Assembly: GCA_018241895.1 (NCBI GenBank)
Contig: JAFECX010000035.1
Span: 1 to 64,000, forward strand
Origin: Pseudomonadota bacterium
GTDB lineage: Bacteria > Pseudomonadota > Gammaproteobacteria > Burkholderiales > Burkholderiaceae_C
Direction of reading: 5' to 3'
Length of the DNA: 64,000 bases
Within the stretch, counting starts at the first letter, position 1. The number at the start of each line of letters is the position of its first letter. Under the pieces are notes generated by a model, which ran no database searches, was not told the DNA's origin, and saw nothing but the letters and a program-made list of their open reading frames with translations. Positions 10,970 to 57,372 of this stretch are shown piece after piece. The translations under genes were made by a program, and so were the position numbers.

Positions 10970-12355
10970 ATGTCTCGAACGGTAAGCGATGCGTTGCGCC
11001 GGCTGTCCATGGCGCGCGCGTTCGTGGACGTCACCGTCGTCCTGCTGGCGGTGTACGCCGGCGTGCTGCTCGATGCCCGCACCGCGGGCGCCTCGCTGCC
11101 GGCCCTCGGCACGCGCGGCGTTTCGCTGGCGGCGGGCATCGTGTTCCTCAACGTGGCCACGGGGCTGTACGACGGCGCCGGGCGCCGCAGCCTGGCCTGG
11201 GCGTCGCTGCGCGCGCTCGCGGCGCTGGCGGTGGCGCTGCCGCTGGCCTACTTCGTGTTCCGCCTGCGCCCGGCCGGCCTGGCCGGTGTCGGCATGATCC
11301 AGTGGGCCGCGATGACCGGCGTGGCCGCCGTGATCCTGCACCGCGGCTACGAGGCCACCACGTCGGCGGTGCAGGCGCGCACGCGCCGGCGCACGCTGAT
11401 CTTCGGCAGCGGCGAGGCCGCGCGCGTGGTCGCCGAGACGCTGCGCACCTCCGACCCCGGCGCCGACATCGTGGGCTTCTACGCCGGGCCGAACGAGGGG
11501 CAGCCGGCGGTGCCGCCGGGCGAGCTGCTGCCGGCGACGCAGTCGCTGCTGGAGACGGCCGTCGAGCGGCGCGTCGACGAGATCGTGGTCGCGCTCGCCG
11601 AACGGCGTGCGGGCAGCATGCCGCTGCGCGAGCTGCTCGACTGCAAGCTGCGCGGCATCGGGGTGTACGACATCAACTCGCACTTCGAGAAGCGCCTGGG
11701 GCAGATCCGCATCGGCTACCTGCATGCGAGCTGGATGATCTTCGGCGACGGCTTCAACCAGGGGCTGGCGCGCACGGCCGTCAAGCGGCTGTTCGACATC
11801 GTCTGCTCGCTGGCGCTGCTCGCGCTGGCGGCGCCCGTCATGCTCCTGGCGGCCCTGGCCATCCGCCTGGACAGCCGCGGCTCGGCGCTGTACCGGCAGG
11901 AGCGCACCGGCAAGGACGGGCGTGCGTTCGAGATCATCAAGTTCCGCAGCATGCGCACCGATGCCGAGAGCGACGGCCGGCCGCGCTGGGCGGCGGCCGA
12001 CGACGAGCGCGTCACGCGCGTGGGCCGCTTCATCCGCCGCACGCGCATCGACGAGCTGCCGCAGCTGTTGTGCGTGCTCAAGGGCGACATGAGCCTGGTC
12101 GGCCCGCGCCCCGAGCGGCCGTTCTTCGTCGAGCAGCTCACGCGCGAGATCCCCTTCTATGCCGTGCGCCACAGCGTCAAGCCCGGCGTCACCGGCTGGG
12201 CGCAGGTGCGCTACCAGTACGGCTCGACGGTCGAGGATTCGCAGCAAAAGCTCCAGTACGACCTGTACTACGTGAAGAACCACTCGCTGTGGCTCGACCT
12301 GCAGACGCTGGTCGAGACGGTGCACGTCGTGCTCAGCGGCCAGGGCGCGCGCTGA
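10970..12355 (+). CDS. Exopolysaccharide sugar transferase, EpsB-like (PEP-CTERM associated)
   Basis: A 461-residue inner-membrane enzyme that would transfer a sugar phosphate to undecaprenyl phosphate, the first step of exopolysaccharide repeat-unit synthesis. The N-terminal half has four to five hydrophobic helices and a CoA-binding-like fold with [16 protein letters not shown]. The C-terminal bacterial sugar transferase domain shows the conserved blocks [34 protein letters not shown] and [15 protein letters not shown]. The latter closely match the PEP-CTERM-linked EpsB2 family. The start is well placed behind AGGAG. It lies between prsK and prsR, as in exosortase A loci. Confidence 0.9.
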
Positions 12356-32209: not shown

Positions 32210-33826
32210 TCAGGCGTTCGGGCGGCGCCGGTAGAAGCGCACCACCTGCTCGCGTGGCGGCCGCGCGGCGCCGCCGTGCTCGACGAGCACCTTGTCGAGC
32301 GCGCGGCCGGCGTCGTCGGCCAGCGCCGCGACGCGCGCCGCATGCACGGCCTGCGCGCGTTCGCCGGCCGGCGTCGGCGCCGTCGCCAGCTGGCCGACGA
32401 TGTGCAGCAGGTTGTCCTTGCCGCGCTCGTTCGTGCTGCCGTAGCCCTTGACGAGCCGGCCGCAGCTGGCCAGCTCGTGGCCGAGCGCCCAGTGCTCGCG
32501 CGCGCCGCGTTCGACGGCGCCCAGCCACTGCTCGATGAGCCGTTGCTCGAGCGCGAAGCGCTGGCTGCGCCGGCGCAGCCAGGGCAGCGAGGCCACCAGG
32601 CGCAGCGCGAGCGCGCCGAGCACGCCGTGCGTGCCCAGCGCCAGCGGCAGCGCCCACGGCTCGCGGCCGGCCGCGGCGCGGCGCCGGTCCCAGGCAATGA
32701 GGCGGTTGGCGAGTGCCTGCGGCAGCATGCCGGCGAGTTCGGGCACGCCGGGCTTGAAGTGGTCGTAGATGCGCACGACCTCGTCGTCGCGCGCACCGAC
32801 CTCGCGGCGCACGCGCGCGATGCGCGAGCGCGCGAGCTTGAGCCGCGCCACGTACACGATGTCGTCGAACGCCATCCACAGCGCGAGCCAGCGCGTCGCC
32901 TCGAGCGTGGTCGCGTACGCGCCGGCGCCCGCCGGATCGCCGGCGCGCTCGGCGTCGAGCACGCGCGCGAGGCGCTCGACGTACCGCGCCGCGTAGTCGG
33001 CATCCTGGTAGTCGACGAGCCGCGCATGCGCGTGCGCGAGCAGCTCGTGCACCTGCGCCGGAAAGCGCTCGCGCAGCGGCGCGGGCAAGGGCGGCACCGC
33101 GGGCACGGCGGGTGTCGCAGCCGCGGCAGGCACCGGCACGGCTGCCGGCGCCGGCGTCATGACGCCGGCCACGTAAGCCTCGGCCCTGGCGCGTTCGGTG
33201 CGCCGCGCCGCCAGCGCATCGTGCGCGAGCGCGAAGCCGCGCAGGCTCGAGTCGACACCCTTGCCGACGGCGCGGATCGCCGCCTCGCACGGCTCGCGGC
33301 CGAACGGCAGCACGCCGCTGCCGGCGATGGCGCCGAACAGCACCGCGCTCACCACCGTGCCGGCCTGGCGCGCCATGGCCTCGGTGTCGATGAACTCGAG
33401 CGTGCGCGCGTGCGGCTGGATCGCGGCCACGAGGCGCGCGTCGTCGCTGCGCCCGTCGCTCATCTGCATCTTCTCGCTCGTGGTCAGCGAGCGCGCGGTG
33501 GAGCTGACGATCGTCGTGCGCTCGCGGCTGGGCAGCCCGGCGCCGACCTGGCGCGCCGTCTCGAGCAGTTCGGACGAGACCATCAGGTCCAGGCCACCGG
33601 GCACCGGATTGAGGCTGAACACCGGCCGGCGCTGGCCGGCGGCCAGCGGCTCGGGGTGGATCTCGACGTAGTAGGTGGTGGCGCCGGTGCGCTGCGCGAC
33701 GCCGGGAATGGACGTGCACTGTGCGGCCAGCCCGGCGTGCGCGGCGGCCACGTACAGCCATTCGGCCAGCACGCCGCCGCCCTCGCCGCCGAGGGCGCAG
33801 ACCAGGATCGTGATCGGTCGGGTCAT
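32210..33826 (-). CDS. iorB: Indolepyruvate oxidoreductase subunit beta
   Basis: A 538-residue subunit with the gamma-type fold of 2-oxoacid:ferredoxin oxidoreductases at its N-terminus (TILVCALGGEGGGVLAEWL, PGVAQRTGATTYYVEI), followed by a proline/alanine linker near 225-255 and a long helical C-terminal extension ending VVRFYRRRPNA. The extension is found in the proteobacterial IorB group and is absent from the short archaeal IorB (about 200 residues). It lies 15 bp after iorA on the minus strand. With IorA it oxidises arylpyruvates to arylacetyl-CoA and reduces ferredoxin. Confidence 0.9.
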   Translation of the reverse strand: MTRPITILVCALGGEGGGVLAEWLYVAAAHAGLAAQCTSIPGVAQRTGATTYYVEIHPEPLAAGQRRPVFSLNPVPGGLDLMVSSELLETARQVGAGLPSRERTTIVSSTARSLTTSEKMQMSDGRSDDARLVAAIQPHARTLEFIDTEAMARQAGTVVSAVLFGAIAGSGVLPFGREPCEAAIRAVGKGVDSSLRGFALAHDALAARRTERARAEAYVAGVMTPAPAAVPVPAAAATPAVPAVPPLPAPLRERFPAQVHELLAHAHARLVDYQDADYAARYVERLARVLDAERAGDPAGAGAYATTLEATRWLALWMAFDDIVYVARLKLARSRIARVRREVGARDDEVVRIYDHFKPGVPELAGMLPQALANRLIAWDRRRAAAGREPWALPLALGTHGVLGALALRLVASLPWLRRRSQRFALEQRLIEQWLGAVERGAREHWALGHELASCGRLVKGYGSTNERGKDNLLHIVGQLATAPTPAGERAQAVHAARVAALADDAGRALDKVLVEHGGAARPPREQVVRFYRRRPNA

Positions 33827-33841: not shown

Positions 33842-36019
33842 TCAGTTCGGCCGCAGCCAGCCCGTGAGCAGCTCGCGTGTGCGCGCCGCGAAGCGTTCGC
33901 GCCAGGTCGGATGGCGCACGATCTCGGCGCGGTAGAAGCTCGGGCACAGCGTCGCGGCGTGCGCGTTGGCGCCGCACAGGCCGCAGCCGACGCAGCCCTC
34001 GATCACGGTGGCCACCGGGTCGACGCGCAGCGGGTCGGGGTTGTCCTTGAGCGTGAGCGTCGGGCAGCCCGACAGCCGGATGCAGGCGTGGTCGCCGGTG
34101 CACACGTCCTCGTCGACGCCGTACTTGACGCGCTCGACGCGCTCGCCGCGCGCCAGCCGCGCCGCGCGCCAGGGCTTGACGCGGCGCTGGCGCTCGAGCT
34201 GGCACTCGCCTTCGGCGACGATGACCTTCAGGCCCGTGAACGGGCTCGTGAACGCCTCTTCGAGCGTGCGCCGCATCGTGCTCACGTCGTAGCTGTTCAC
34301 GACGCGGATCCACTTGGCGCCCATGCCGGCGAGCGTGCCCTCGATCGACTTGTTGCGATCGACCAGGCTCTGGTGCGGCAGGCCCTGCTGCAGCGCCTGC
34401 GCCTTCACCTCGTCGTCGGGCGTGCTGATGATGTCCTGCTGGCCGGTGGCCGACGTGTAGCCGTTCTTCAGGATCATCAGCACCGCGTCGTCGCCGTTGA
34501 ACAGCGCCGCCTCGACGCCGGTGAGCAGCCCGTTGTGCCAGAAGCCGCCGTCGCCCATGACGGCGATGGCGCGCCGCTGCAGCGCCGGGCTGACGCCGGC
34601 GCGGCTGGCCAGGCTCATGCCGAAGCCGAGGATCGAGTGGCCGGAATCGAAAGGCTCGAAGGTGGCGAACGAATGGCAGCCGATGTCGGCCGCGACGTGC
34701 ACCGGACCGACCGTCTGCTGCGCCAGCTTCATCGCCGCGAACACCGGCCGCTCGGGGCAGCCGATGCAGAAGTTGGGCGGCCGGGGCGGCAGCGCACCCA
34801 GCGCGCTGGCCGCCGCGGCGCGGCGTGCGACGGTCGCCTCGAGCCAGGCGCGCCCGGCCGACACGTCGATCTGCGGCGCCTGCTCGGCGAGGAAGTCGAC
34901 GAGGCCGCGCACGATGACCTCGACGTTGTACTCGCCGGCCGCCGGCAGCGGGCCCTTGCCGAAGACGGGCGTCTGCACGTCGGCGCGGCGCAGCGCGAGC
35001 GCCAGATCCTTCTCGATGTACTCGGGCGAGCCCTCCTCGAGCACCAGCACCGCGCGCCTGCCGGCGCACCAGGGCGCGAGCTCGGCCGGCGCCAGCGGAT
35101 AGACGACGTTGAGCACGAAGATCGGCAGCACGCTGGCGCCGAAGGCGTCGGCCAGGCCGCAGATCTGCAGCGCGCCGACGAGCGCGTTGTAGATCCCGCC
35201 CTGCACCACGAGGCCGAGCTGCGCCGCCGCGCTGTCGGCGCCGGCGCTGCTGTCGTGGCGCTCGTTGAGGCCGTGCTCGACGATGTAGCGCTGCGCCGCC
35301 GGGATGCGCTGGTCGATCTTGAGCTTCTCGTGCTGGAACGTCACCGGCGGATGCGACAGCCGCATGTAGTCGAAGCCGGCCGGCTCGTCGATGAGGCGGT
35401 GCGTGCCGAACCTGGGCGCCACGTTGTCCTTGGTCTGGAAGCTGCCGCGCACGTGGCAGGCGCGGATGCGCAGCTCGACCATCGCCGGCATGTTGCTCGC
35501 CTCGCTGAGCGCGAACGCGTGTTCGACGCAATGCACGAGGTTGGCCGGATCGGGGCGCGGATCGAACAGGGCCAGCGTGCTCTTGGCGGCGTAGGCGTGG
35601 GTGCGCTCCTGCACCACGCTGGCGCCCTCGCCGTAGTCCTCGCCGACGACGATGACGGCGCCGCCGACCACGCCCGGCGACGCCAGGTTGGACAGCGCGT
35701 CGGCGGCGACGTTGGTGCCGACGATGCTCTTCCACGTGACCGCGCCGCGCAGCGGATAGTGCAGGCTGGCGCCGAGCATCGCCGCCGCCGAGGCTTCGTT
35801 GCTGCAGGCCTCGACGTGCACGCCGAGCGTCTCGAGATAGGGCCGCGCCTGCACCATCACGTCGAGCAGGTGCGACACCGGCGCGCCCTGGTAGCCGCCG
35901 ACGTAGGCGACGCCCGACTGCAGCAGCGCCTTGGTGACGGCGATGATGCCTTCGCCGTGGAACGTCTGTCCCGCGCCCAGGCGCAGTTGCTCGATCTCTT
36001 CGGTGAACTGGATTTCCAT
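33842..36019 (-). CDS. iorA: Indolepyruvate:ferredoxin oxidoreductase subunit alpha
   Basis: A 725-residue thiamine-diphosphate enzyme. The pyrimidine-binding half starts with GEGIIAVTKALLQSGV; the pyrophosphate half has MGDGGFWHNGLLTG. Two [4Fe-4S] motifs close the chain: CTGDHACIRLSGC and CVGCGLCGANAHAATLC. The shortened spacing in the first motif is usual for proteobacterial IorA. Reaction: arylpyruvate + CoA + oxidised ferredoxin to arylacetyl-CoA + CO2 + reduced ferredoxin. It sits in a leftward operon after a CoA ligase gene. A -10-like CACAAT at 36046-36051 and AGGA before the ATG suggest its own short leader. Confidence 0.93.
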   Translation of the reverse strand: MEIQFTEEIEQLRLGAGQTFHGEGIIAVTKALLQSGVAYVGGYQGAPVSHLLDVMVQARPYLETLGVHVEACSNEASAAAMLGASLHYPLRGAVTWKSIVGTNVAADALSNLASPGVVGGAVIVVGEDYGEGASVVQERTHAYAAKSTLALFDPRPDPANLVHCVEHAFALSEASNMPAMVELRIRACHVRGSFQTKDNVAPRFGTHRLIDEPAGFDYMRLSHPPVTFQHEKLKIDQRIPAAQRYIVEHGLNERHDSSAGADSAAAQLGLVVQGGIYNALVGALQICGLADAFGASVLPIFVLNVVYPLAPAELAPWCAGRRAVLVLEEGSPEYIEKDLALALRRADVQTPVFGKGPLPAAGEYNVEVIVRGLVDFLAEQAPQIDVSAGRAWLEATVARRAAAASALGALPPRPPNFCIGCPERPVFAAMKLAQQTVGPVHVAADIGCHSFATFEPFDSGHSILGFGMSLASRAGVSPALQRRAIAVMGDGGFWHNGLLTGVEAALFNGDDAVLMILKNGYTSATGQQDIISTPDDEVKAQALQQGLPHQSLVDRNKSIEGTLAGMGAKWIRVVNSYDVSTMRRTLEEAFTSPFTGLKVIVAEGECQLERQRRVKPWRAARLARGERVERVKYGVDEDVCTGDHACIRLSGCPTLTLKDNPDPLRVDPVATVIEGCVGCGLCGANAHAATLCPSFYRAEIVRHPTWRERFAARTRELLTGWLRPN

Positions 36020-36139: not shown

Positions 36140-37633
36140 CTACGCGCGCAGCGCGCGCACGCGCAGTCGCTTGCCGCTGCGCCCGCGCGCCTCGCCGTCG
36201 GTGCAGACGCCGCATTGCAGGCGCACCGCGCCCAGGCCCTGCTGCCGCAGCCAGCCCTGCAAGGCGGTGCGCGCCGCGGCGACGCGCTCGGGCCGCGCAT
36301 CGCAGCCGTACAGCGTGAGCCGCAGCGTCGCCGGCGCGGTCTGGCACAGCTCGAAGTCGAACACCCGCGCCTCGTCCTCGAGCACCGTCACCAGCGCCAG
36401 CGGCGCCAGATGCACGCGCTCGCCGGCACGCACGTCGACGCCGAGCGTCTCGTCGTCGCGACCGTGCACTTCGACGATCGGCAGCGCGCTGCCGCAAGCG
36501 CACGGATCGCGCACGATGCGCACGCGATCGCCCAGCACGTAGCGGATGGCGGGCTGCACGCGGTTGGCGAGATTGGTCAGCAGCACCGAGGCGCCGAGCT
36601 CGCCTTCGGGCACCGGGCGCAGGCACTCGTCGACCGGCTCGAGGATCACCCAGTCGCCGTGCAGGTGCATGCCGCCGTGGCCGCATTCGCTGGCCATCTC
36701 GAGGCACTCGCTGGCGCCGTAGCTGTCGCGCACGGTGGCGCCGAAGCGTTCGCTCAGGGCCGCGCGCAGCGCCGGCGTGAGCGACTCGCCGCCGGTCCAG
36801 ATCTCGCGCGGCGCGATGCGCAGCCGACCCGCGGCGCGCTCTTCGGCCAGCACCCAGGCCATGCTGGGATAGGTCGACAGGACGCTCGGCTGCCAGGCCT
36901 CGAGTGCCGCCGCGAGCTCGTGCCGAGGCTGCAGGAACGAGAAGGTGCGCAGCGCGCCTTGCAGCCATGGGTTCACGCGCACCAGGCGCGCCAGCGAGAC
37001 CACGCTCGCGAAATGGCCGCCCACCGCGCCGACGAAGGCCAGCCGCGGCAGCATCGGGCCGAACGCGCTCCACATCGGCGTCAGCCACGACGGCAGGGCG
37101 GAGGCCACCGGGCCGCGCGCGCTTTGCAGCGCGTCGCCCACGGCCAGCGCTTCGCGGTCCTGCACGAACAGCGCCGGCCGGCCGCTGCTGCCCGAACTCT
37201 CCCACACGATGTAGCGGCCGAGAAACGGCGTGCCGATGCGCGCCGGATCGCGCACGAACTCGCGCACGCCTTCGACGGTGACGGCCGGGTCGGTGACCCA
37301 TTCGTCGAAGTGCTGCATCAGTTCGGCCTTGTGCACCGGCGGCAGCTCGTCCAGCCGCCACGCCGACGGCGGCCGCGCGCCGAGCAGCGCGCGATACAGC
37401 CGCCGGTAGAACGGCGAGTGCTCGTGCGCGTGCCGCAGCAGTGCGGCCAGCCGCTCGTCGCGCCGCGCGCGCCAGGCGGCGGCACCGCCGCGCGTGACGG
37501 CGAACGCGTCGACGTAGGCCGTCGCCGCGCGCAAGGAGTCGAGCACGCTGTCCACGAGGTCGATCTTCGGCGCCATGCGCGCCGGCAGGTTGATCGCGCG
37601 CAAGGCCGCGAACTTGATCTGCGGCAATGCCAT
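36140..37633 (-). CDS. Phenylacetate-CoA ligase-family AMP-forming enzyme
   Basis: A 497-residue adenylate-forming enzyme from the ATG at 37633. It contains VWESSGSSGRPALF (phosphate-binding loop), YGASECLEMASECG and RYVLGDRVRI, matching the PaaK-like branch, with a CACGS element after it. A carboxylate, probably an arylacetate, would be activated to its CoA thioester. The product overlaps with the product of the IOR enzyme encoded downstream, so both routes would converge on arylacetyl-CoA. It lacks a signal peptide and is cytoplasmic. It heads the leftward ligase-iorA-iorB operon. Confidence 0.85.
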   Translation of the reverse strand: MALPQIKFAALRAINLPARMAPKIDLVDSVLDSLRAATAYVDAFAVTRGGAAAWRARRDERLAALLRHAHEHSPFYRRLYRALLGARPPSAWRLDELPPVHKAELMQHFDEWVTDPAVTVEGVREFVRDPARIGTPFLGRYIVWESSGSSGRPALFVQDREALAVGDALQSARGPVASALPSWLTPMWSAFGPMLPRLAFVGAVGGHFASVVSLARLVRVNPWLQGALRTFSFLQPRHELAAALEAWQPSVLSTYPSMAWVLAEERAAGRLRIAPREIWTGGESLTPALRAALSERFGATVRDSYGASECLEMASECGHGGMHLHGDWVILEPVDECLRPVPEGELGASVLLTNLANRVQPAIRYVLGDRVRIVRDPCACGSALPIVEVHGRDDETLGVDVRAGERVHLAPLALVTVLEDEARVFDFELCQTAPATLRLTLYGCDARPERVAAARTALQGWLRQQGLGAVRLQCGVCTDGEARGRSGKRLRVRALRA

Positions 37634-37785
37634 GCGCGCACCATGCGGACAACATCGGCCCGGACTGCAGCCACTGGACTGCGCGGCCGGCCGTGATGCC
37701 GGCTCCGGTGCGGCGCCGAGTGGGCGTGCCGCACGAGCGTGCCTCGTGCACCGTGTCGCCGCGCTGCTCTGCCGAGGGCACTTCC
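37634..37785. promoter_or_regulatory. Divergent promoter region ligase-iorAB / nfnAB
   Basis: 152 bp between two divergent genes, the only control region shared by the IOR operon and the Nfn-rubrerythrin operon. It contains GCGGACAACATCGG near 37646 but no clear consensus box. Shared space makes joint regulation possible. Confidence 0.4.
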
Positions 37786-40155
37786 ATGTACCAGATCGTC
37801 CGCCGCGAAGCCTTCTCCGAGCTCACGTTCCTGTGGGACGTGCACGCGCCCGACGTCGCGCGCTCGGCGCAGCCCGGGCACTTCGTGATGCTGCGCCTGG
37901 ACGACGGCAGCGAGCGCATCCCGCTCACCGTCGCCGACTACGACCGCGACGCCGGCACCGTCACGCTGGTCGTGCAGGCGCTGGGCAAGACGACGCGCCA
38001 GATGCGCGACCAGTACAAGGCCGGCGACAGCTTCGCCGACTTCGTGGGCCCGCTCGGCCTGCCGCAGCACGTGGGCCAGGTCGGCCACGTGGTGCTGGTG
38101 GGCGGCGGCCTGGGCGTGGCGCCGATCTTCCCGCAGCTGCGCGCGTTCAAGGAGGCCGGCAACCGCACCACCGGCATCATCGGCTTTCGCAACCAGGATC
38201 TCGTGTTCTGGGAGGACAAGTTCCGCGACTGGTGCGACGAGCTCATCGTCTGCACCGACGACGGCAGCTACGGCAAGCACGGCTTCGTCACCGCGGCGCT
38301 GCAGGAGGTGCTCGGGCGCGAGCGTGCCGACCTCGTCGTCGCCATCGGCCCGATGCCGATGATGAACGCCTGCGCCGAGACGTCGCGCCCGTTCGGCGTC
38401 AAGACCATGGTCTCGCTCAACGCCATCATGGTCGACGGCACCGGCATGTGCGGCTCGTGCCGCGTGACGGTGGACGGCGAGGTCAAGTTCGCCTGCGTCG
38501 ACGGCCCCGACTTCGACGGCCACCAGGTCGACTTCCGCGAGCTGATGCTGCGCCAGAAGCGCTTCAAGGGCGAGGAGCAGGAGGCCAACGACGACTACGC
38601 GCGCGTGTGCCACGTCGAGGAGGTGCTGTTCAAGCAGGACAAGAAGAACTACAAGAAGTACAAGGATCTCGCGCCGCTGGCGACCAAGATGCCCGAGCGC
38701 GACGCCGGCGAGCGCGCGCGCAACTTCAAGGAGGTCAACCTCGGCTACGCGATGGCCGACGCGATCGCCGAGGCCGAGCGCTGCATCATGTGCAGCAAGC
38801 CGGCGTGCGTCGAAGGCTGCCCGGTGTCGATCGACATCCCGCGCTTCATCAAGCACATCCTGGTGCGCGACATCGACGGCGCGCGCGACGTCATCAACGA
38901 GTCGAACCTGCTGCCCTCGATCTGCGGCCGCGTGTGTCCGCAGGAGTCGCAGTGCGAGGCGCAGTGCGTGGTCGGCCGCAAGCTCGAGAGCGTGGCCATC
39001 GGGCGCCTCGAGCGCTTCGTCGGCGACAACGCCGGGCCGCGCAAGACGACGCCGCCGCCGTTCGCCGGGCGCCTGGGCAAGGTGGCCGTGGTGGGCTCGG
39101 GCCCGTCGGGCCTGGCGGTGGCGGCCGACCTCGCCAAGTACGGCTGCGACGTCACCGTCTACGAGGCGCTGCACGTGGTGGGCGGCGTGCTGCAGTACGG
39201 CATCCCGGCGTTCCGGCTGCCGCGCGACATCATCGCGCGCGAGGTCGAGGTGCTCGAGGGCCTGGGCGTCAAGTTCCTCACCAACAAGGTCATCGGCAAG
39301 ACGTTCTCGGTGCCGCAGCTGATGGGCGAGATGGGCTTCGATGCCGTCTTCGTCGGTGTCGGCGCGGGCGCACCGGCGTTCCTCGGCATCCCGGGCGAGT
39401 TCGCGGGCCAGGTCTACTCGGCCAACGAGTTCCTCACGCGCGTCAACCTGATGGGCGGCGACAAGTTCCCCTACCTCGACACGCCGGTGACGATCGGCAA
39501 GAGCGTCGTCGTCATCGGCGCCGGCAACACCGCGATGGACTGCCTGCGCGTGGCCAAGCGCCTGGGCGTGCCGACCGTGCGCTGCGTGTACCGGCGCAGC
39601 GAGGCCGAGGCGCCGGCGCGCATCGAGGAGCTGCGCCACGCCAAGGAGGAGGGCATCGAGTTCCTGTTCCTGCACGGGCCGGTCGAGATCCTCGTCGACG
39701 ACGAGGGCAACGTGCGCGGCATGAGAGTCGAGAAGATGGCGCTGGGCGAGCCCGACGAGCGCGGCCGGCGCAAGCCGGTGGGCACGGGCGAGCTCATCGA
39801 GCTCGAGTGCGACACCGTGATCTACGCGCTGGGCACGAAGGCCAACCCGATCGTCACCAAGTCGACGCCGGGCCTCGAGCTCACCAAGTGGGGCTACATC
39901 GTCGCCGACACCGCCACGCAGGCCACCAGCGTGCCGGGCGTGTTCGCCGGCGGCGACATCGTCACCGGCGCCGCCACCGTGATCCTGGCAATGGGCGCCG
40001 GGCGGCGCGCGGCCCGCGCCATCGGCGCCTGGCTGGCCGGGGGCAAGAGCAGCTGGCCCGTCACGCAGGCCGACGCCGACGCGTTCACGCCGCCCGCCGC
40101 GCTCGGCGCGCTGGCACCCTTCGAGCCCCGCAACCCCGACGAGGTCGCGTCATGA
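37786..40155 (+). CDS. Fused NfnAB-like NADH-dependent ferredoxin:NADP oxidoreductase
   Basis: A 789-residue flavoprotein from the ATG at 37786. Residues 1 to about 280 match NfnA (FNR-like FAD/NAD part with GGGLGVAP, and a [2Fe-2S] site with D218, C222, C225 and C237; an aspartate ligand is a known trait of NfnA). A charged linker (about 260-315) joins this to an NfnB/GltD-like half: Cys clusters C333/C336/C341/C345 and C380/C384/C390/C394, a dinucleotide fold GSGPSG (437-442) and a second GAGNTA. In NfnAB these centres bifurcate NADPH electrons to NAD and ferredoxin. Here the two subunits are one chain. It ends overlapping the rubrerythrin start and is divergent from iorAB, which makes or uses reduced ferredoxin. 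Confidence 0.88.
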   Translation: MYQIVRREAFSELTFLWDVHAPDVARSAQPGHFVMLRLDDGSERIPLTVADYDRDAGTVTLVVQALGKTTRQMRDQYKAGDSFADFVGPLGLPQHVGQVGHVVLVGGGLGVAPIFPQLRAFKEAGNRTTGIIGFRNQDLVFWEDKFRDWCDELIVCTDDGSYGKHGFVTAALQEVLGRERADLVVAIGPMPMMNACAETSRPFGVKTMVSLNAIMVDGTGMCGSCRVTVDGEVKFACVDGPDFDGHQVDFRELMLRQKRFKGEEQEANDDYARVCHVEEVLFKQDKKNYKKYKDLAPLATKMPERDAGERARNFKEVNLGYAMADAIAEAERCIMCSKPACVEGCPVSIDIPRFIKHILVRDIDGARDVINESNLLPSICGRVCPQESQCEAQCVVGRKLESVAIGRLERFVGDNAGPRKTTPPPFAGRLGKVAVVGSGPSGLAVAADLAKYGCDVTVYEALHVVGGVLQYGIPAFRLPRDIIAREVEVLEGLGVKFLTNKVIGKTFSVPQLMGEMGFDAVFVGVGAGAPAFLGIPGEFAGQVYSANEFLTRVNLMGGDKFPYLDTPVTIGKSVVVIGAGNTAMDCLRVAKRLGVPTVRCVYRRSEAEAPARIEELRHAKEEGIEFLFLHGPVEILVDDEGNVRGMRVEKMALGEPDERGRRKPVGTGELIELECDTVIYALGTKANPIVTKSTPGLELTKWGYIVADTATQATSVPGVFAGGDIVTGAATVILAMGAGRRAARAIGAWLAGGKSSWPVTQADADAFTPPAALGALAPFEPRNPDEVAS

Positions 40156-40787
40156 GCATCTGCCCACGCTGCCAGCAGCCGCTGGACGACGACGAGCCCT
40201 ACATCTGCTGCGCCGGGCGCGAGCTGCGCTGGCGCTGCACGAGCTGCCAGAAGGTGAGCGAGGGCTTCGCCTTCCCCTACGGCATGTGCCCGCACTGCAA
40301 GGGCCGGCTCGAGCTGCTCGAGCGCGACGGCGTCGAGGACGACGCGGCGCTGGCCGCCGTGCGCAAGGCCTTCGAGATCGAGATCGGCGGCCACGCCTAC
40401 TACACGCGCGTGGCGCTGGAGGCCAAGGACCCGGTGCTGAGCGAGCTGTTCGGCCGCTTCGCCGCGATGGAGCAGGAGCACATGGCGACGCTGGCCCGGC
40501 GCTACCACGCCGAGCTGCCCGCGCCCAGCAGCGACTTCCAGATCGACCGCGCGGCGATCTTCACCGGCGTCGAGCGCCGGCCCGAGGATCCGGCCAACCT
40601 CTTTCGCATCGCCATCGCGTTCGAGCAGCGCGCGGTCGAGTTCTTCACGCGCGAAGGCGAGCGCGCGCCCGCGGGTTCGGTCGAGCGCCAGCTCTACCTC
40701 GAGCTGGCCGCCGAGGAGCGCGAGCACGTCGAGCTGCTGGGCACCGAGTACCGGCGCTGGGAGTCGGGGCGCAGCGGCATCCTCTGA
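40152..40787 (+). CDS. Rubrerythrin-like di-iron protein with N-terminal zinc ribbons
   Basis: A 211-residue protein whose ATG overlaps the stop of the nfnAB-like gene (ATGA), so the two are translationally coupled. The N-terminus has three CxxC pairs (C4/C7, C29/C32, C46/C49), an unusual position because most rubrerythrins carry the rubredoxin domain at the C-terminus. The ferritin-like four-helix part has E-rich helices FEIEIGGHAYY, MEQEHMATL (ExxH), FEQRAVEFF and AAEEREHVELL (ExxH), enough for a di-iron site. Expected role: NAD(P)H-dependent reduction of hydrogen peroxide with electrons from a flavoprotein, plausibly its fused neighbour. Confidence 0.87.
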   Translation: MSICPRCQQPLDDDEPYICCAGRELRWRCTSCQKVSEGFAFPYGMCPHCKGRLELLERDGVEDDAALAAVRKAFEIEIGGHAYYTRVALEAKDPVLSELFGRFAAMEQEHMATLARRYHAELPAPSSDFQIDRAAIFTGVERRPEDPANLFRIAIAFEQRAVEFFTREGERAPAGSVERQLYLELAAEEREHVELLGTEYRRWESGRSGIL

Positions 40788-41017: not shown

Positions 41018-41869
41018 TTGTCTCATCAGACCGCCCCCTCCTCGCCCGCCGTGCCGCCCCTGCCGCCCGCTGTCTCGGCCCCCTCGCCTTCGCCGCCGGC
41101 CACGCCCGTGCTGCAGGCGCTCGACCTGGCCGGCCAGCGCGGCGAGCGTTCCTTGTTCCAGCACCTCGAGCTCGCGCTCGAGCCCGGTGCCGTGGTCTGG
41201 CTGCGCGGACGCAACGGGCGCGGCAAGACCAGCCTGCTGCGCCTGCTGGCGGGCCTGGCCACGCCGATGGCGGGCGAGGTGCGCGTGCACGGGGTGCCGC
41301 AGCTTCGCAGTGCCCCGGCATGGCGCCGCGGGCTCGTCTACATCGGCCATCAGAACGCGCTCAACGGGGACCTGACGGCGAGCGAGGCGCTCGCCTTCCT
41401 GGAACGCCTGGGCGGGCGCCGCCACGACGCCGTGCGCGTCGAGGCCGCGCTGGCGCGGCTGGGGGTGCAGCACAAGCGCCGCGCGCCGGTGCGCACGCTC
41501 AGCCAGGGCCAGCGGCGGCGCGTGGCGCTGGCACGGCTGGCGTTGGCGCTCGAGTGCAGGCTGTGGCTGCTCGACGAGCCGTTCGACGCGCTCGACGCCG
41601 ACGGCGTGCGCTCGCTCAACGAGCTGCTCGCCGAGCACGCGGCGCGCGGCGGCGCCGCGCTGCTCACCAGCCATCAGCCGCTCAGCCTGGTGGCGCCCGC
41701 ACCGCGCATCTTCGATCTCGACCGCCACGCGCCCGCTGCCGACGCCTGGCCGGCAGTGGCCGAGCGGCAAGCGGGTTCGGTCGCCGCGGCGGCGCCGGGC
41801 CCGGCCGTGGATCCGGTGCGGGCTGCGCCACGGGATCCGGGCGGACGCAGCGCGGCGGGCACGGCATGA
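41018..41869 (+). CDS. ccmA: Haem exporter ATP-binding protein CcmA
   Basis: A 283-residue ATPase of the cytochrome c maturation system. Walker A GRNGRGKTS, signature LSQGQRRRVALARLAL and Walker B LWLLDEPFDALDADG are intact; GLVYIGHQNALNGDLT is typical of CcmA. The start is uncertain: the TTG used here adds a proline/serine-rich leader of about 30 residues, while a GTG near 41108 (VLQALDLAG) would remove it. A long alanine/proline tail follows the ATPase core. It works with CcmB in releasing the holo-CcmE complex from CcmC. Its stop overlaps the ccmB start. Confidence 0.88.
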   Translation: MSHQTAPSSPAVPPLPPAVSAPSPSPPATPVLQALDLAGQRGERSLFQHLELALEPGAVVWLRGRNGRGKTSLLRLLAGLATPMAGEVRVHGVPQLRSAPAWRRGLVYIGHQNALNGDLTASEALAFLERLGGRRHDAVRVEAALARLGVQHKRRAPVRTLSQGQRRRVALARLALALECRLWLLDEPFDALDADGVRSLNELLAEHAARGGAALLTSHQPLSLVAPAPRIFDLDRHAPAADAWPAVAERQAGSVAAAAPGPAVDPVRAAPRDPGGRSAAGTA

Positions 41870-42534
41870 GGGACTGCTTCGGCGCCGTGCTCGCGCGCGA
41901 ACTGCGCCTGGCCTCGCGGCGGCGCATCGACGCGCTGCTGCCGCTGGTCTTCTTCCTGGTGGCGATCAGCCTGTTTCCGCTCGGCGTCGGCCCCGAGGCA
42001 CAGACGCTGCGCCAGATCGCGCCGGGCATCGTCTGGGTGTGCGCGCTGCTGGCGACGATGCTGTCGGTCAACCAGCTGTTCGCCGCCGACCTGGCCGACG
42101 GCTCGCTCGAGCAGATGCTGCTCGCGCCGCAGCCGGCGCTCGCGATGGTGGCCGCCAAGTGCGTGGGGCACTGGCTGGTGACGGGGCTGCCGCTGGTGGT
42201 GGTGGCGCCGCTGGCGGGGCTGCTGTTCGACATGTCGGCGCCGGCGCTGGCGGCGCTGCTCGCCGGCCTCGTGCTCGGCACGCCGATCCTCAGCCTGCTC
42301 GGCGCGCTCGGTGCCGCGTTGACGCTGGGCCTGCGCAGCGGCGGCATGCTGCTGATCCTGATCGTGCTGCCGCTGGCCACGCCGACGCTGATCTTCGGCG
42401 CCGGCGCCGTCAGCCACACCGAGGCGGGGCTGTCGGCCGGCGGCCACTTCTCGCTGCTGGGAGCGCTGCTGATCGCCACCGCGCTCGGCGCGCCGGCGGC
42501 CACTGCGGCGGCGCTGCGCATCTCCACCGAGTGA
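41866..42534 (+). CDS. ccmB: Haem exporter membrane protein CcmB
   Basis: A 222-residue membrane protein with six hydrophobic helices; ATG overlaps the ccmA stop. RELRLASRRRIDALLPLVFF and LADGSLEQMLLAP are conserved CcmB words. It forms the membrane part of CcmAB. The gene ends with a TGA that abuts a repeat element (42534-42694), which then separates it from ccmC by about 250 bp, an interruption unusual for this normally tight operon. Confidence 0.92.
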   Translation: MRDCFGAVLARELRLASRRRIDALLPLVFFLVAISLFPLGVGPEAQTLRQIAPGIVWVCALLATMLSVNQLFAADLADGSLEQMLLAPQPALAMVAAKCVGHWLVTGLPLVVVAPLAGLLFDMSAPALAALLAGLVLGTPILSLLGALGAALTLGLRSGGMLLILIVLPLATPTLIFGAGAVSHTEAGLSAGGHFSLLGALLIATALGAPAATAAALRISTE

Positions 42535-42694
42535 GAACCTGCGAACGAACCACTCACGCCCGCTCGACGCGCCCTGACGCCCCCGCTCGGCGTTGCAAAT
42601 GCTCGCCATATCGCCCGATATGGCTGCGCTTTGCGCCTTGATCAGGGCCGCCCTGTCGCGCCGCTCGGGCGCGACCGATTCATTCACAGGTTCT
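42534..42694. mobile_element. 161-bp MITE-like element, full copy
   Basis: The ends are inverted: GAACCTGCGAACGAACC on the left and, read on the other strand, GAACCTGTGAATGAATC on the right (14 of 17 positions). The interior contains GGCGTTGCAAATGCTCGCC and a CATATCG/CGATATG dyad. It has no coding capacity. A second copy with a 90-bp internal deletion (48590) and a right half (57592) share the same sequence. It begins on the last base of the ccmB TGA stop and lies between ccmB and ccmC. Confidence 0.8.
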
Positions 42695-42780
42695 GAGCCG
42701 GCCTCAGGGCGCACGCCGCCAGGCACCGAGCTTGACGCCGCACGGCTGCAGGCGCAGCGCCGGCAAGGGACAATCGCGCC

Positions 42781-43572
42781 ATGGAGTCCGTTTCCGTCGT
42801 CGACGCGCCGGCGCCGACGCTGCGTCTGTTCACGTTTGCCGCGCCATCGCGCTTCTATGCGCTGGCGGGCCGGCTGCTGCCGTGGCTGTGGCTGGCCACG
42901 GCCGCCTTTGCCGCCGCCGGCCTGTACGTCGGCTTCTTCGTCGCGCCCACCGACGCCACGCAGGGCCAGAGCTATCGCATCATCTTCGTCCACGTGCCGG
43001 CGGCCTGGATGTCGATGCTGCTGTACCTGGTGATGGCGTTCTGGGCCGCGATCGGCTGGGCCTTCAAGGCGCGGCTGGCGTCAATGATGGCGCGTGCCAT
43101 CGCCCCCACCGGCGCGCTGTTCACCTTCCTGGCGCTGTGGACCGGCGCCTTCTGGGGCCGCCCGGCCTGGGGCGCCTGGTGGGTGTGGGACGCGCGGCTG
43201 ACGACCGAGCTGATCCTGCTCTTCCTGTACCTGGGCTTCATCGCGCTGGTCAACGCCATCGACGACGTGCGCCGCGCCGACCACGCCGGCGCGCTGCTGG
43301 CGCTGGTGGGCAGCGTCAACGTGCCGATCATCTACTTCTCGGTGCAGTGGTGGAACACGCTGCACCAGGGCGCGACCATCAGCATGACCGCGGCGCCCAA
43401 GATGGCGGCAACCATGCTCACGGCGATGCTGCTGATGGCCTGCGCCTGCTGGGCCTACGCCTTCGCGGTGATCTTCACCCGCGTGCGCGCCATCATCGTC
43501 GAGCGCGAAGCCCACACGGCCTGGGTGGGCGAAATCACGGCGCCGCGGCGGCAGGGAACAATCGCGCCGTGA
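42781..43572 (+). CDS. ccmC: Haem delivery protein CcmC
   Basis: A 263-residue six-helix membrane protein with the tryptophan-rich haem-handling motif [12 protein letters not shown] and flanking histidines in FVHVPAAW and WWNTLHQG. It loads haem onto CcmE. The N-terminus ([17 protein letters not shown]) is preceded by GACAAT and only 6 nt, with no ribosome-binding site, which suggests a leaderless start after the repeat element upstream. Confidence 0.94.
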
Positions 43573-43748
43573 ACTGGTCAAGCCCTTCCGAATTCTTCGC
43601 CATGGGCGGCTACGGCCTCTATGTCTGGGGCTCGTACGGCGTCATGGCGCTGCTGATGGCGATCGAGCCGCTGCTGGCGCGGCGGCGCCACCGGCAGGCC
43701 TTGCACGACGCGGCCGACGCGGCCGACGACGAACGGAGCCCGACATGA
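43569..43748 (+). CDS. ccmD: Haem exporter small protein CcmD
   Basis: A 59-residue protein from a GTG that overlaps the ccmC stop. It has a single helix with [16 protein letters not shown], the consensus of CcmD, and a basic tail. It anchors the CcmABC complex and helps release holo-CcmE. Its stop overlaps the ccmE start. Confidence 0.9.
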
Positions 43749-44209
43749 AGACCCGCCACAAGCGCCTGGCCATCGCCGGCGGCCTCGTCGTCGCCGTGGG
43801 CGCCATCGCCGCCCTCGTGCTCAACGCGTTCCAGAGCAACCTGGTGTTCTTCTACTCGCCCACACAGGTCGTGGCGCAGGAGGCCCCCAGCGGGCGCACC
43901 TTCCGCATCGGCGGCCTGGTGGAGACCGGTTCGGTGAAGGTCGACGGCACGCACGTGCAGTTCGTCGTCACCGACTCGGCGCAGTCGGTGCCGGTGCGCT
44001 ACACGGGGATCCTTCCCGACCTCTTCAAGGAGGGCAAGGGCGTGGTCGCGCAGGGCCAGTTGCACGACGGCGTCTTCGTCGCACGCGAGGTGCTGGCCAA
44101 GCACGACGAGAACTACATGCCGCCCGAGGCCGCCGAGGCGCTGGCCAAGGCGCAGCAGGGCGACCCGAAGCTGGGCAAGTCGCTCGCCGGCCAGGGGGCA
44201 GCGCAATGA
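43745..44209 (+). CDS. ccmE: Haem chaperone CcmE
   Basis: A 154-residue periplasmic chaperone anchored by one N-terminal helix. It binds haem covalently at H120 in [12 protein letters not shown], with Y124 as the usual axial partner. The OB-fold core includes [12 protein letters not shown] and [13 protein letters not shown]. The ATG overlaps the ccmD stop and the TGA overlaps the ccmF start. Confidence 0.95.
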
Positions 44210-46191
44210 TCCCCGAGGCCGGTCACTTCCTGCTCTGGCTGGCGCTGGGCACGGCGCTCGTGCTGGCCGTCGTGCCGCTGGTGGGCGCCGCGCGCGGCAA
44301 CGTCGCCTGGATGGCGCTGGCGCGCCCGGCCGCGCTGCTGCAGTTCGTGTTCGTGCTCGGCGCCTTCGCCTGCCTCGCCGCCGCCTTCGTCAACCACGAC
44401 TTCTCGGTCGACTACGTGGCGTCCAACTCCAACAGCGCGCTGCCGCTGTACTACCGGCTGTCGGGCGTGTGGGGCGGGCACGAAGGCTCGATGCTGCTGT
44501 GGCAGGTGATGCTGGTCGGCTGGACGCTGGCGGTGGCGCTGTTCTCGCGCCACCTGCCGCAGGTCGTGGTGGCGCGCATCCTGTCGGTGATGGGCTGGCT
44601 GGCCGCGGGCTTCCTGCTGTTCACGATCTTCACCTCCAACCCGTTCGAGCGCCTGGTGCCCGCGGTCGCCGACGGGCGCGACCTGAACCCGCTGCTGCAG
44701 GATCCGGGCATGATCTTCCACCCGCCGATGCTCTACATGGGCTATGTCGGCTTCTCGGTGGCCTTCGCGTTCGCGATCGCGGCGCTGATCGGCGGCCACC
44801 TCGACGCCACCTGGGCGCGCTGGACGCGGCCGTGGACGACGGCGGCGTGGCTGTTCCTCACGCTCGGCATCGCGATCGGCAGCGCCTGGGCCTACTACGA
44901 GCTCGGCTGGGGCGGCTGGTGGTTCTGGGATCCGGTGGAAAACGCCTCGTTCATGCCCTGGCTCGTCGGCACCGCGCTCATGCACTCGTTGGCGGTGACG
45001 GAAAAGCGCGGCAGCTTCAAGAACTGGACCGTGCTGCTGGCGATCGTCACCTTCTCGCTGTCGCTGCTGGGCACGTTCCTCGTGCGCTCGGGCGTGCTGA
45101 GCTCGGTGCACGCGTTCGCCACCGACCCGCGGCGGGGCCTGTTCATCCTCGCCTTCCTGGCCACGGTGATCGGCATCTCGCTCGTGCTGTATGCCTGGCG
45201 CGCGCCCAGGGTCGGGCTCGGCGCGCGCTTCGAGATGGTCTCGCGCGAGACGATGCTGCTCGTCAACAACGTGCTGCTCCTGGTGTCGGCCGGTGCCGTC
45301 ATGCTCGGCACGCTGTACCCGCTGGTGCTCGACGCGCTCGGGCTGGGCAAGATCTCGGTCGGCCCGCCCTACTTCGAGGCCGTGTTCGTGCCGCTGATGA
45401 CGCCGCTCGTCGTGCTCATCGGCGTCGGGCCGCTGGCGCGCTGGAAGCACGCCGAGCTGCCCGACCTCGCGCGGCGCCTGCGCTGGGCCTGCGGCGCCGC
45501 GGTCGTCGCGACCGTGCTCGCGCAGTGGCTCGCCGGGCGCGCCTCGGCGCTGGCGGCGCTGGGCATGCTGCTCGCCTTCTGGATCTTCGCCTCGGTGGCC
45601 ACCGACCTGTGGGAGCGCGTGCGCCCCGCCGGCGGCATGCGCAGCTCGATCGTCGGGCGCCTCGCACGGGTGCCGCGGGCGATGACCGGCATGATGCTCG
45701 CGCACCTGGGCGTGGGCGTGTTCGTCTTCGGCGTCACGATGGTCAAGACGTACGAGGTCGAGCGCGACGTCAGGATGGACGTCGGCGACACGACCGAGAT
45801 CGCCGGCTACGTCTTCACGTTCGAGGGCGCGCGCCAGGTGCAGGGCCCGAACTACCAGGCCATGCAGGGCCTGGTGACGGTGACGAAGAACGGGCGCACG
45901 GTGGCCGAACTCAGGCCCGACAAGCGCGTCTACCGCGTGCAGTCCAACCCGATGACCGAGGCGGCGATCGCCAGCGGCCTCACACGCGATCTGTACGTCT
46001 CGATGGGCAACCCGATCGACAACGGCGGCTGGGTCGTGCGCGTGTACTACAAGCCCTTCGTGAGCTGGATCTGGGGCGGCTGCGTGCTGATGGCCCTGGG
46101 CGGCGCGATCGCCGCCAGCGACCGGCGCTACCGCGTCCTGCGCCGCGAGCAGGCCGCACGCCTCGACGCCACCGGCGCGGCCGCGACATGA
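44206..46191 (+). CDS. ccmF: Cytochrome c haem lyase subunit CcmF
   Basis: A 661-residue protein with about 14-15 membrane helices. The WWD domain [16 protein letters not shown] and flanking periplasmic histidines ([17 protein letters not shown]) bind haem. It joins haem to apocytochrome c with CcmH and CcmI. Start and stop overlap the flanking genes, so translation is coupled. Confidence 0.95.
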
Positions 46192-46739
46192 AGCGCTGGA
46201 AGTTCCTGCTGCCGCTGGCGGCCTTCGTGGTGCTGCTGGGCTTCCTCGTCGTCGGCCTCAGGCTCGATCCGCGCGAGGTGCCTTCACCGCTGATCGGCAA
46301 GCCCGCGCCGGAGTTCAGGCTGGCGCGCCTGGACGACCCGACGCAGCTCGTCGGCCGCGACGAGCTGCTCGGCAAGGTCTGGATGCTCAACGTGTGGGCC
46401 TCGTGGTGCGTGGCCTGCCGCGAGGAGCACCCGGTGCTGGTCGACTTCGCGCGCCGCAAGATGGTGCCGATCTACGGCCTCAACTACAAGGACCAGCGCG
46501 ATGCCGCGCAGGGCTGGCTGCGCCGCCTGGGCAACCCCTACGACGCGTCGATCATGGACCGCGACGGGCGCGTGGGCATCGACTACGGCGTGTACGGCGT
46601 ACCCGAGACCTTCGTCGTCGACAAGCGCGGCGTCATCCGCTACAAGCAGATCGGACCGGTGACGCGCGAGGCGCTCGCGGACAAGATCGTGCCGCTGCTC
46701 GAGCGGCTGCAGGCCGAGAATGCCGCCAACCCGGCCTGA
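46188..46739 (+). CDS. ccmG: Thiol:disulfide interchange protein CcmG/DsbE
   Basis: A 183-residue membrane-anchored thioredoxin-fold protein. One N-terminal helix (KFLLPLAAFVVLLGFL) is followed by the active site WCVAC (C74/C77) and the cis-Pro loop YGVPETFVVD. It keeps apocytochrome c cysteines reduced. The ATG overlaps the ccmF stop. Confidence 0.94.
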   Translation: MKRWKFLLPLAAFVVLLGFLVVGLRLDPREVPSPLIGKPAPEFRLARLDDPTQLVGRDELLGKVWMLNVWASWCVACREEHPVLVDFARRKMVPIYGLNYKDQRDAAQGWLRRLGNPYDASIMDRDGRVGIDYGVYGVPETFVVDKRGVIRYKQIGPVTREALADKIVPLLERLQAENAANPA

Positions 46740-55839: not shown

Positions 55840-57372
55840 TCAGCGTCGTCTCGCGGTGGTCGACGCAGCCGCCCTGGCGCCGACCCGGGCGCCGCCTTCG
55901 GGCCCTCGACGCAGGGCCGCGGCGAGCGCGGGCAACTGCTCGACGAAGGGCTGCGCGTCCTCCAGGCAGCGCAGGTCCAGCAGCAGCCGCTCGTCGGCGA
56001 TGCGCCCGATGACCGCGAGCGGCAGCGCGCGCAACGCGCTCGCGAGTTCGTCGAGGGCGCGCCCGCCGCCCTTCCTCTGTGCCGGCGCGATCGCCAGGCC
56101 TGCCGACGCGAGGCGCTCGACCGGCAGCGAGCCGGAGCCGATCTGGCCCTGCATCGCCGCTGCCTCGACCGTGTAGCGCGGCGCGAGTGCCTGCGCCACG
56201 GCCGGCGCGAGTCGCCCGGCCAGCGCACGGATCTGCTCCACGGGCCGCGCGAGCAGCCGCAGCGTCGGCAGGTCGCGCGCCAGCCGTTCGGGCCGCAGGT
56301 ACAGCCGCAGCGTCGCCTCGAGCGCGGCCAGCGGCAGCTTGCTCATGCGCAGCGCGCGCTTCATCGGGAACCCGCGGATGCGCGCGATGGCCGAGCGCGA
56401 GCCGACGATCAGCCCCGCCTGCGGGCCGCCCAGCAGCTTGTCGCCGCTGAAGGTGACGACGTCGCAGCCGGCGGCGAGCTTGTCCTGCGGCAGTGGCTCG
56501 CGCGGCAGCCCGTGGGCCGCGAGATCGACGAGCGCGCCGCTGCCCAGGTCGCTGGCCACCGGCAGCCCGTGCGCGTGCGCGATGCGCGCCAGCTCGGCCT
56601 CTTCGACCGCCGCCGTGAAGCCCTGCAGCGCGTAGTTGCTCGTGTGCACCTTCATCAGCAGCGCCGTGCGCTCGCCGATTGCGCGCTCGTAGTCGCGCGC
56701 ATGCGTGCGGTTGGTGGTGCCGACCTCGACCAGCGTGGCGCCGGCCGCGGCCATCACGTCGGGCATGCGGAAGGCGCCGCCGATCTCGACCAGCTCGCCG
56801 CGCGAGACGACGACCTCGCGTCCCTGCGCGAGCGCGGCGATCGTCAGCAGCACCGCGGCGGCGTTGTTGTTGACCACCGTCGCCGCCTCGGCGCCGGTGA
56901 GCGTGCACAGCAGCTCCTCGACCAGGCTGTCGCGCTCGCCCCGGCCGCCTGAGGCGAGGTCGTACTCGAGGTTGTTCGGCGCCGCCATCGTCGTCAGAAG
57001 GTGCCCGAGCGCGGCGTCGGCGAGCACGGCGCGACCCAGGTTGGTGTGGATCACCGTGCCGGTGAGATTGAGCACGCGGCGCATGCGCGGCGCGAGGCGC
57101 GCGTCGACGCCGCCGGCGAGTGCCGCAGCGAGCGCATCGGCGTCGATCTCGGCTGCCGACAGCGTGCCGGCGACGGCGCGCACGCGCAGCGCGTCGAGCA
57201 GCGCACGCGCCTCGTGCGCGACCAGCGTGTGGCCGTGCTCGGCCACGAGCGCCCGTGCACGCGCACTGCGCAGCAGGCGGTCGGTGGACGGCAGATCCTG
57301 CGGGCCGGCCTTGACGCCGTCGACGACGGAGCCCTCGGTGCTCGGCGTGCGCACGCTCGCGCGCTCGGTCAT
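55840..57372 (-). CDS. selA: L-seryl-tRNA(Sec) selenium transferase
   Basis: A 510-residue PLP enzyme that converts seryl-tRNA(Sec) to selenocysteinyl-tRNA(Sec). The PLP lysine is in FSGDKLLGGP; NLTGTVIHTNLGRAVL and LEYDLASGGRGERD are conserved SelA words. No Shine-Dalgarno sequence is evident before the ATG at 57372. selB, selD and tRNA-Sec are not in the window; the usual downstream position of selB is taken by the uspA gene on the other strand. The presence of selA implies selenoproteins elsewhere in the genome, for instance a formate dehydrogenase. Confidence 0.92.
   Translation of the reverse strand: MTERASVRTPSTEGSVVDGVKAGPQDLPSTDRLLRSARARALVAEHGHTLVAHEARALLDALRVRAVAGTLSAAEIDADALAAALAGGVDARLAPRMRRVLNLTGTVIHTNLGRAVLADAALGHLLTTMAAPNNLEYDLASGGRGERDSLVEELLCTLTGAEAATVVNNNAAAVLLTIAALAQGREVVVSRGELVEIGGAFRMPDVMAAAGATLVEVGTTNRTHARDYERAIGERTALLMKVHTSNYALQGFTAAVEEAELARIAHAHGLPVASDLGSGALVDLAAHGLPREPLPQDKLAAGCDVVTFSGDKLLGGPQAGLIVGSRSAIARIRGFPMKRALRMSKLPLAALEATLRLYLRPERLARDLPTLRLLARPVEQIRALAGRLAPAVAQALAPRYTVEAAAMQGQIGSGSLPVERLASAGLAIAPAQRKGGGRALDELASALRALPLAVIGRIADERLLLDLRCLEDAQPFVEQLPALAAALRRGPEGGARVGARAAASTTARRR

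Follow-up and report, generated by a model that had tools for sequence, protein, structure and literature searches.

A single-chain Nfn-type protein and its rubrerythrin-like partner in a betaproteobacterium with a class I benzoyl-CoA reductase

What function might be served by an Nfn-type transhydrogenase whose two subunits are joined in one chain and whose gene overlaps with that of a rubrerythrin? This question is raised by the genes nfnAB and rbr in a stretch of 64,000 nucleotides, here termed the window, which comprises positions 1 to 64,000 of contig JAFECX010000035.1 (assembly GCA_018241895.1) from a betaproteobacterium of the order Burkholderiales, whose genome is designated as G000. 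An initial annotation had proposed a redox module in which both proteins act together with the products of a divergently transcribed ligase-iorA-iorB operon. Our analysis retains the links to ferredoxin metabolism and to rubrerythrin but not the one to ior as its defining feature. It suggests that an Nfn-type NAD(P)H/ferredoxin module, combined with a dedicated rubrerythrin-like (Rbr) reductase of peroxide or O2, serves benzoyl-CoA reduction in its host, a reading that we consider probable with moderate confidence.

The fused Nfn protein and its constant partner

As initially described, nfnAB forms a single open frame on the forward strand (37786-40155), which encodes a protein of 789 residues. 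Its NfnA-like part (37786-38625, forward) contains an FAD/NAD(H) domain and an Asp(Cys)3 [2Fe-2S] site composed of C222, C225, C237 and D217, the latter of which had been misplaced by one position to 218. It is followed by an NfnB-like part (38686-40038, forward) with two [4Fe-4S] sites and the Rossmann folds for FAD and NADPH (Pfam Fer4_20 and Pyr_redox_2). Although the eight cysteines of this part (C333, C336, C341, C345, C380, C384, C390 and C394) are all present, their earlier description as two quartets does not conform to the pattern of Nfn, where one [4Fe-4S] cluster shows Glu(Cys)3 ligation (PMC8097209). By homology, the corresponding glutamate would probably be E409 in the motif IGRLERF. 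Together with the aspartate and all named cysteines, this residue is invariant in 84 of 84 sequences.

In a family scan, the protein aligns with positions 1-779 of the NCBIfam model NF009413/PRK12775 at 1510 bits and it also exceeds the cut-offs of gltA (TIGR01316, 535 bits, cut-off 472) and NfnA (PRK06222, 392 bits, cut-off 220). Among chains of known structure, the NfnB part scores 494 bits with Thermotoga NfnB, 472 with Pyrococcus NfnII and 466 with the large chain of NfnI, whereas the beta chains of GltS reach 285 and 274 bits. For the NfnA part, the respective values are 316 bits for the small subunit of Pyrococcus furiosus NfnI, 260 for Thermotoga maritima NfnA and 178 for the small subunit of NfnII. 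These scores support the initial assignment as an Nfn-type protein, with Thermotoga and Pyrococcus Nfn chains as closest solved relatives, rather than a plain GltD.

The start codon of rbr (40152-40787, forward, 211 residues) is located at position 40152 within the stop codon of nfnAB (ATGA), which bears out the proposed translational coupling. Its product, consisting of an N-terminal double Cys4 ribbon and a four-helix diiron domain, aligns with positions 798-1006 of PRK12775 at 335 bits and also matches the Pfam Rubrerythrin model. The residues E77, E107xxH110, E158 and E189xxH192, which follow the Glu/ExxH/Glu/ExxH signature of a diiron site, are invariant in 58 of 58 Rbr members, and the same applies to the eight cysteines of the ribbons. 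Both ribbons had been annotated as zinc-binding, but a similarity to rubrerythrin's rubredoxin-like domain is seen in the second (WRCxxC..V.EG...P...CPxC). Its profile alignment with the rubredoxin domain of the Desulfovibrio protein is weak (E 0.04), as are the matches of PF21349 (RUBY_RBDX) to 28 of the 58 members (best E 0.0024), with zinc-ribbon models performing about equally weakly. A fairly confident structure prediction (mean predicted local distance difference test, pLDDT, of 85) displays a fold that matches COG1633 proteins and bacterioferritins, and the sequence match to solved rubrerythrins is weak. The most fitting description of the protein is that of a rubrerythrin-like diiron protein bearing ribbons at its N-terminus.

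The relation between both proteins was investigated in 83 loci, of which 80 originate from a contig scan and three from a genome search, with two pairs being identical in sequence. The former are the best 80 of 160 confirmed loci, whose retrieval required the presence of conserved peptides of the query. Many of the carriers are incomplete metagenome-assembled genomes (MAGs) and their relatedness makes all locus counts phylogenetically dependent. Within this set, Rbr resides on the same chain as NfnAB in 39 loci and is encoded by a neighbouring gene of its own in 37, while seven loci, one of them cut by the end of its contig, do not contain it. Its presence next to or within nfnAB in 76 of 83 loci is not the result of chance and identifies the rubrerythrin as constant partner. 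On a quick tree of NfnAB containing one distant outgroup, the window protein is found in betaproteobacterial clade I (26 rows, Shimodaira-Hasegawa-like approximate likelihood ratio test, SH-aLRT, 100), while a betaproteobacterial clade II (nine rows) is nested among alphaproteobacteria, and the same-chain, split and absent states of Rbr account for nine changes together. The ATGA overlap is present in 19 of 24 examined loci of clade I. Across 300 genomes of Burkholderiales, matches to the Rbr profile above 290 bits are confined to G000 and G083, which both contain the fused nfnAB found in 2/300 of these genomes. The recurrent fusion and the exclusive co-occurrence are the best argument that Nfn and Rbr are partners, be it physically or functionally.

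Since nfnAB and rbr are both covered by PRK12775, which describes a putative trifunctional protein containing NfnA, NfnB and a ferritin domain in the same order and subfamily, the pair is a version of a known single-chain architecture that is divided between two genes. The model comprises one chain of about 1006 residues with a cut-off of 1895 bits, which is exceeded by the L024 homologue (one chain, 994 residues, 1983 bits), whereas the two overlapping genes of the window each remain below.

The subfamily has another member in G000, a rubrerythrin with 55% identity that is encoded on a different contig (C221, L113:9294-9980) and cut by the contig end. It is located behind a clade-II-like cluster of genes for a molybdopterin oxidoreductase, an FeS protein and a PaaK-type ligase, with no nfnAB in between. 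Conversely, fused nfnAB of the window's subfamily is retained without rbr in L025, from the 0.9-Mb alphaproteobacterial genome G472, and in L076.

Host metabolism and the ferredoxin pool

The content of G000 (3.98 Mb) was assessed by family searches and from chosen stretches. The genome contains bcrCBAD, encoding a class I benzoyl-CoA reductase whose four subunits all exceed their curated cut-offs, followed by a gene for a YfhL-type 2[4Fe-4S] ferredoxin, and it also encodes a pyruvate:ferredoxin oxidoreductase (PFOR), which is at odds with a purely aerobic lifestyle, the host having initially been presumed to be aerobic or facultative. Nitrogenase was ruled out as a local electron sink, as no NifH was found in the genome. 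Taken together, this inventory suggests that the host is probably a facultative anaerobe degrading aromatic compounds by the benzoyl-CoA route. The complete bcrCBAD-ferredoxin set and a second BcrABCD-like set are found in L114:800-5858 and L115:10263-14892 of the same genome; the four genes of the second set score below the curated cut-offs and possibly act on another aryl- or hydroxyacyl-CoA substrate. Of the 35 betaproteobacterial genomes that carry nfnAB-rbr, 24 contain BcrB, a strong enrichment over the 6/270 Burkholderiales in which it is detected, and in an even sample it is present in all three Nfn-bearing genomes (two with the fused protein and G103 with separate nfnA and nfnB) compared to 3/267 others. 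By our own arithmetic, the chance of this co-occurrence would be about 6e-6 if genomes were independent, a significance that is inflated by their relatedness.

A comparable role has been described for AadN (RPA0678) of Rhodopseudomonas palustris, a fused 'pattern B' Nfn whose deletion left growth on cyclohexanecarboxylate unimpaired but reduced that on benzoate and 4-hydroxybenzoate, and which was proposed to feed benzoyl-CoA reductase (Lewis et al., 2023; PMC9973337). AadN and the window protein share the single-chain organization, the complete set of cofactor sites, the link to benzoyl-CoA reductase and a carrier that breaks down aromatic compounds under anoxia, as is probable for the host of the window. 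Since AadN contains Cys38 and none of the retrieved sequences has a cysteine in that column, AadN itself is not among them.

Our computations define the architecture, the ligands, the conserved partnership, the genome content and the co-occurrence, and from these we infer the direction of electron flow, any bifurcation, the ferredoxin partner and the transfer of electrons from Nfn to the diiron site. In the proposed mechanism, the single-chain flavoenzyme would exchange electrons between NAD(P)H and low-potential ferredoxin. The ferredoxin pool of the host would most likely supply the class I benzoyl-CoA reductase during the anaerobic breakdown of aromatic acids, with PFOR and, locally, IorAB as putative further entries of electrons. 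Rbr, which is part of one chain in many relatives and translationally coupled in the window, would work physically with NfnAB and most likely receive electrons from its flavins via the rubredoxin-like ribbon, thereby reducing H2O2 or O2 and protecting the oxygen-sensitive ferredoxin system. In bacteria that do not contain KorAB, nfnAB-rbr, with its strong association at the genome level, would be a candidate gene pair for supplying class I benzoyl-CoA reductase with electrons of very low potential.

Genomic surroundings

The divergent region of 152 bp between the start codons of the ligase gene and nfnAB (37634-37785) was annotated exactly. No sigma-70-like promoter or terminator was found in this region or locus, sigma-54-like sites show no excess and Rfam models do not match. 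Two FNR-box-like sites (TTGATNNNNATCAA, with two mismatches each) at 37590 and 37614 (37590-37627) are located inside the start of the ligase coding region and were therefore left as unproven. On the opposite strand follow genes for an AMP-binding, PaaK/F390-synthetase-like ligase (36140-37633), an alpha subunit of the indolepyruvate:ferredoxin oxidoreductase family (iorA-like, 33842-36019) and IorB of the PRK08312 family with a DUF6537 domain (32210-33826). Among the identities initially assigned to these proteins, only that of IorB exceeds its cut-off (550 bits, cut-off 348), whereas the IorA-like protein scores 228 bits with TIGR03336 (cut-off 651) and the ligase, which is only distantly PaaK-like, is below curated cut-offs as well. 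The C-terminal ferredoxin domain of the IorA-like protein contains seven instead of eight cysteines (pattern CTGDHAC), a feature common to L026 and L050.

The occurrence of fused nfnAB turned out to be largely independent of iorAB. Among 81 other distinct loci, the ligase-iorAB genes adjoin nfnAB only in L026, the nearest relative (93% identity). The alphaproteobacterial locus L050 (Xanthobacteraceae) contains ligase, iorA and iorB at a distance of 3-8 kb downstream from the unit, and a gene for a fused IorAB (PRK13030) comes after rbr in L094 and overlaps with it. IorB of the PRK08312 family was identified in 38/300 Burkholderiales, as opposed to 2/300 for fused nfnAB, and in 17/36 of the carrier genomes. 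The ligase-ior neighbourhood is thus mostly a local arrangement.

The more regular neighbour in clade I is PFOR (nifJ), which in 23 of 25 loci has the orientation of rbr and starts 21-157 bp behind it. Of the two exceptions, L040 ends too soon on its contig and L026 is a true one. The resulting order nfnAB-rbr-PFOR is usually continued by a gene resembling dihydroorotate dehydrogenase (DHOD). PFOR is present in only 28/300 Burkholderiales. In the window genome, the PFOR/DHOD pair is kept on contig C5, with a PFOR that is 84.6% identical to that of L028, and it is therefore the linkage that was lost and not the genes. At the place where clade-I relatives encode PFOR, the window contains genes for cytochrome c maturation (ccmA onwards, 41018-46739) directly 3' of rbr. 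The unit of clade II is preceded by genes for a PaaK-type ligase, HcrA/HcrB resembling 4-hydroxybenzoyl-CoA reductase and a molybdopterin oxidoreductase, and in L101, L103, L104 and L105 (relatives of Ramlibacter and Rhodoferax) Rbr is part of an unusual fusion to a 3-hydroxybenzoate/benzoate-CoA ligase domain. In several Rhodospirillales the unit directly follows nif genes (NifN, NifV). In L056, L057, L060, L075 and L097, nfnAB is found, with or without rbr, right behind genes for NifV, NifN and ferredoxin, and the nif-linked protein would be a candidate electron donor to nitrogenase. What these neighbours have in common is ferredoxin chemistry at low potential, and the association with ior is one example of it.

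Elsewhere in the window, selA encodes an L-seryl-tRNA(Sec) selenium transferase (55840-57372), whose presence suggests that the host probably makes selenoproteins, and genes for XrtA/PEP-CTERM exopolysaccharide synthesis (PrsK histidine kinase, EpsB_2 glycosyltransferase) are found at 8441-12355.

Alternative readings and known systems

Several observations weigh against a function of nfnAB-rbr in benzoyl-CoA reduction. About one third of the betaproteobacterial carriers, many of them incomplete MAGs, show no match to BcrB, which is also absent in all nine alphaproteobacterial and myxobacterial carriers checked via loci of the contig scan, so that the electron sink would differ by lineage. An alphaproteobacterium from the genome search (G484) does contain BcrB. 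In the window genome, nfnAB-rbr and bcr are located on different contigs and no placement inside a benzoate or 4-hydroxybenzoate cluster was seen, unlike the relatives of clade II, which reside in hydroxybenzoyl-CoA clusters. As carriers are related, their counts are not independent events. AadN resembles the window protein by architecture and proposed role and would be no more than a putative orthologue, and no rubrerythrin is mentioned in its description (PMC9973337). Concerning Rbr, the ribbons may bind zinc instead of forming an Fe(Cys)4 site, and an AlphaFold model of the trifunctional chain leaves the arrangement of domains and the placement of Rbr unfixed (predicted template modelling score, pTM, 0.49). 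Canonical rubrerythrins contain an extra glutamate three residues past the helix-C ligand. In Rbr this position is occupied by A161, an alanine that is invariant in 58 of 58 members.

Other explanations have to be considered against this background. That an ordinary GltD-like subunit was misread as Nfn appears scarcely tenable, for even though fold and cofactors are common to GltD and NfnB, the scores of the NfnB chains exceed those of GltS beta and an NfnA domain precedes on the same chain. Distinctly improbable is also a non-bifurcating NADPH:ferredoxin oxidoreductase devoid of NADH activity as in P. furiosus NfnII, which retains its cofactors although its NADH site is obstructed (PMC8097209) and thus illustrates that ligands alone are no proof of bifurcation. 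The NfnA part, however, is closer to the small subunits of bifurcating enzymes, and the motifs GGGLGVAP, GFR and TDDGS of its NAD(H) domain, which are degraded in NfnII, are intact.

The conserved fusion and co-occurrence of Nfn and Rbr would also fit a dedicated NAD(P)H:rubrerythrin peroxidase or O2 reductase, where Nfn mainly reduces the diiron protein without major flux through ferredoxin, and reverse rubrerythrins act as NADH-linked reductases of H2O2 and O2 via separate reductase or partner proteins (PMC7482061). In light of the full conservation of the low-potential [4Fe-4S] ligands, the lineages that carry nfnAB without rbr and the recurrent vicinity of ferredoxin enzymes, we regard this possibility as quite unlikely. 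We also consider it unlikely that oxidation of aryl-2-oxoacids by the ligase-IorAB proteins, Nfn and rubrerythrin form one unit co-regulated via the shared 152-bp region. The divergent arrangement in the window and L026, the genes in the vicinity of L050 and L094 and the higher frequency of IorB among carriers are in accordance with such a unit, but its adjacency is absent elsewhere, the usual clade-I neighbour PFOR is kept at another place of the genome and the ligase is only a distant relative of PaaK.

Although the architecture is represented by the NCBI family PRK12775, we found no open-access paper treating the Nfn-rubrerythrin fusion or its function. The four architectures of Nfn covered in a review do not include a rubrerythrin (Liang et al., 2019; PMC6405883), and the fusion or coupling to an oxygen-defence protein is therefore an unexamined variant, which may reveal how ferredoxin pathways survive exposure to oxygen. 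NfnAB of T. maritima and NfnI of P. furiosus, to which the L024 homologue is 47-54% identical in its Foldseek matches, resemble the window protein with respect to ligands, folds and NAD(H)-domain motifs but consist of two subunits, function without a rubrerythrin and are of proven activity, whereas the window protein is known from its sequence. With reverse rubrerythrins, Rbr shares a Cys4 ribbon, in its case possibly rubredoxin-like, that is N-terminal to the diiron helix bundle, and it differs by the additional ribbon, the alanine at the position of the extra glutamate and the connection with a reductase, which is covalent or translational (PMC7482061). The predicted Rub-Bfu system, where a bifurcating NADH/ferredoxin core is combined with a rubrerythrin subunit for a proposed removal of peroxide (Schut et al., 2022; PMC9304861), offers a further parallel. 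In a bolder and rather doubtful extension of our proposal, Nfn-Rbr would itself bifurcate, with electrons of NADPH (or NADH) being split between low-potential ferredoxin, destined for benzoyl-CoA reductase or nitrogenase, and H2O2 or O2 at its own diiron site, or in reverse, with ferredoxin and NAD(P)H jointly driving the removal of peroxide. If true, it would constitute the Nfn counterpart of Rub-Bfu, with which it has in common the ferredoxin-linked bifurcating core next to a rubrerythrin. In Rub-Bfu, the core is formed by the unrelated BfuBC and the link is confined to adjacency, whereas the relatives of nfnAB-rbr are often covalently fused.

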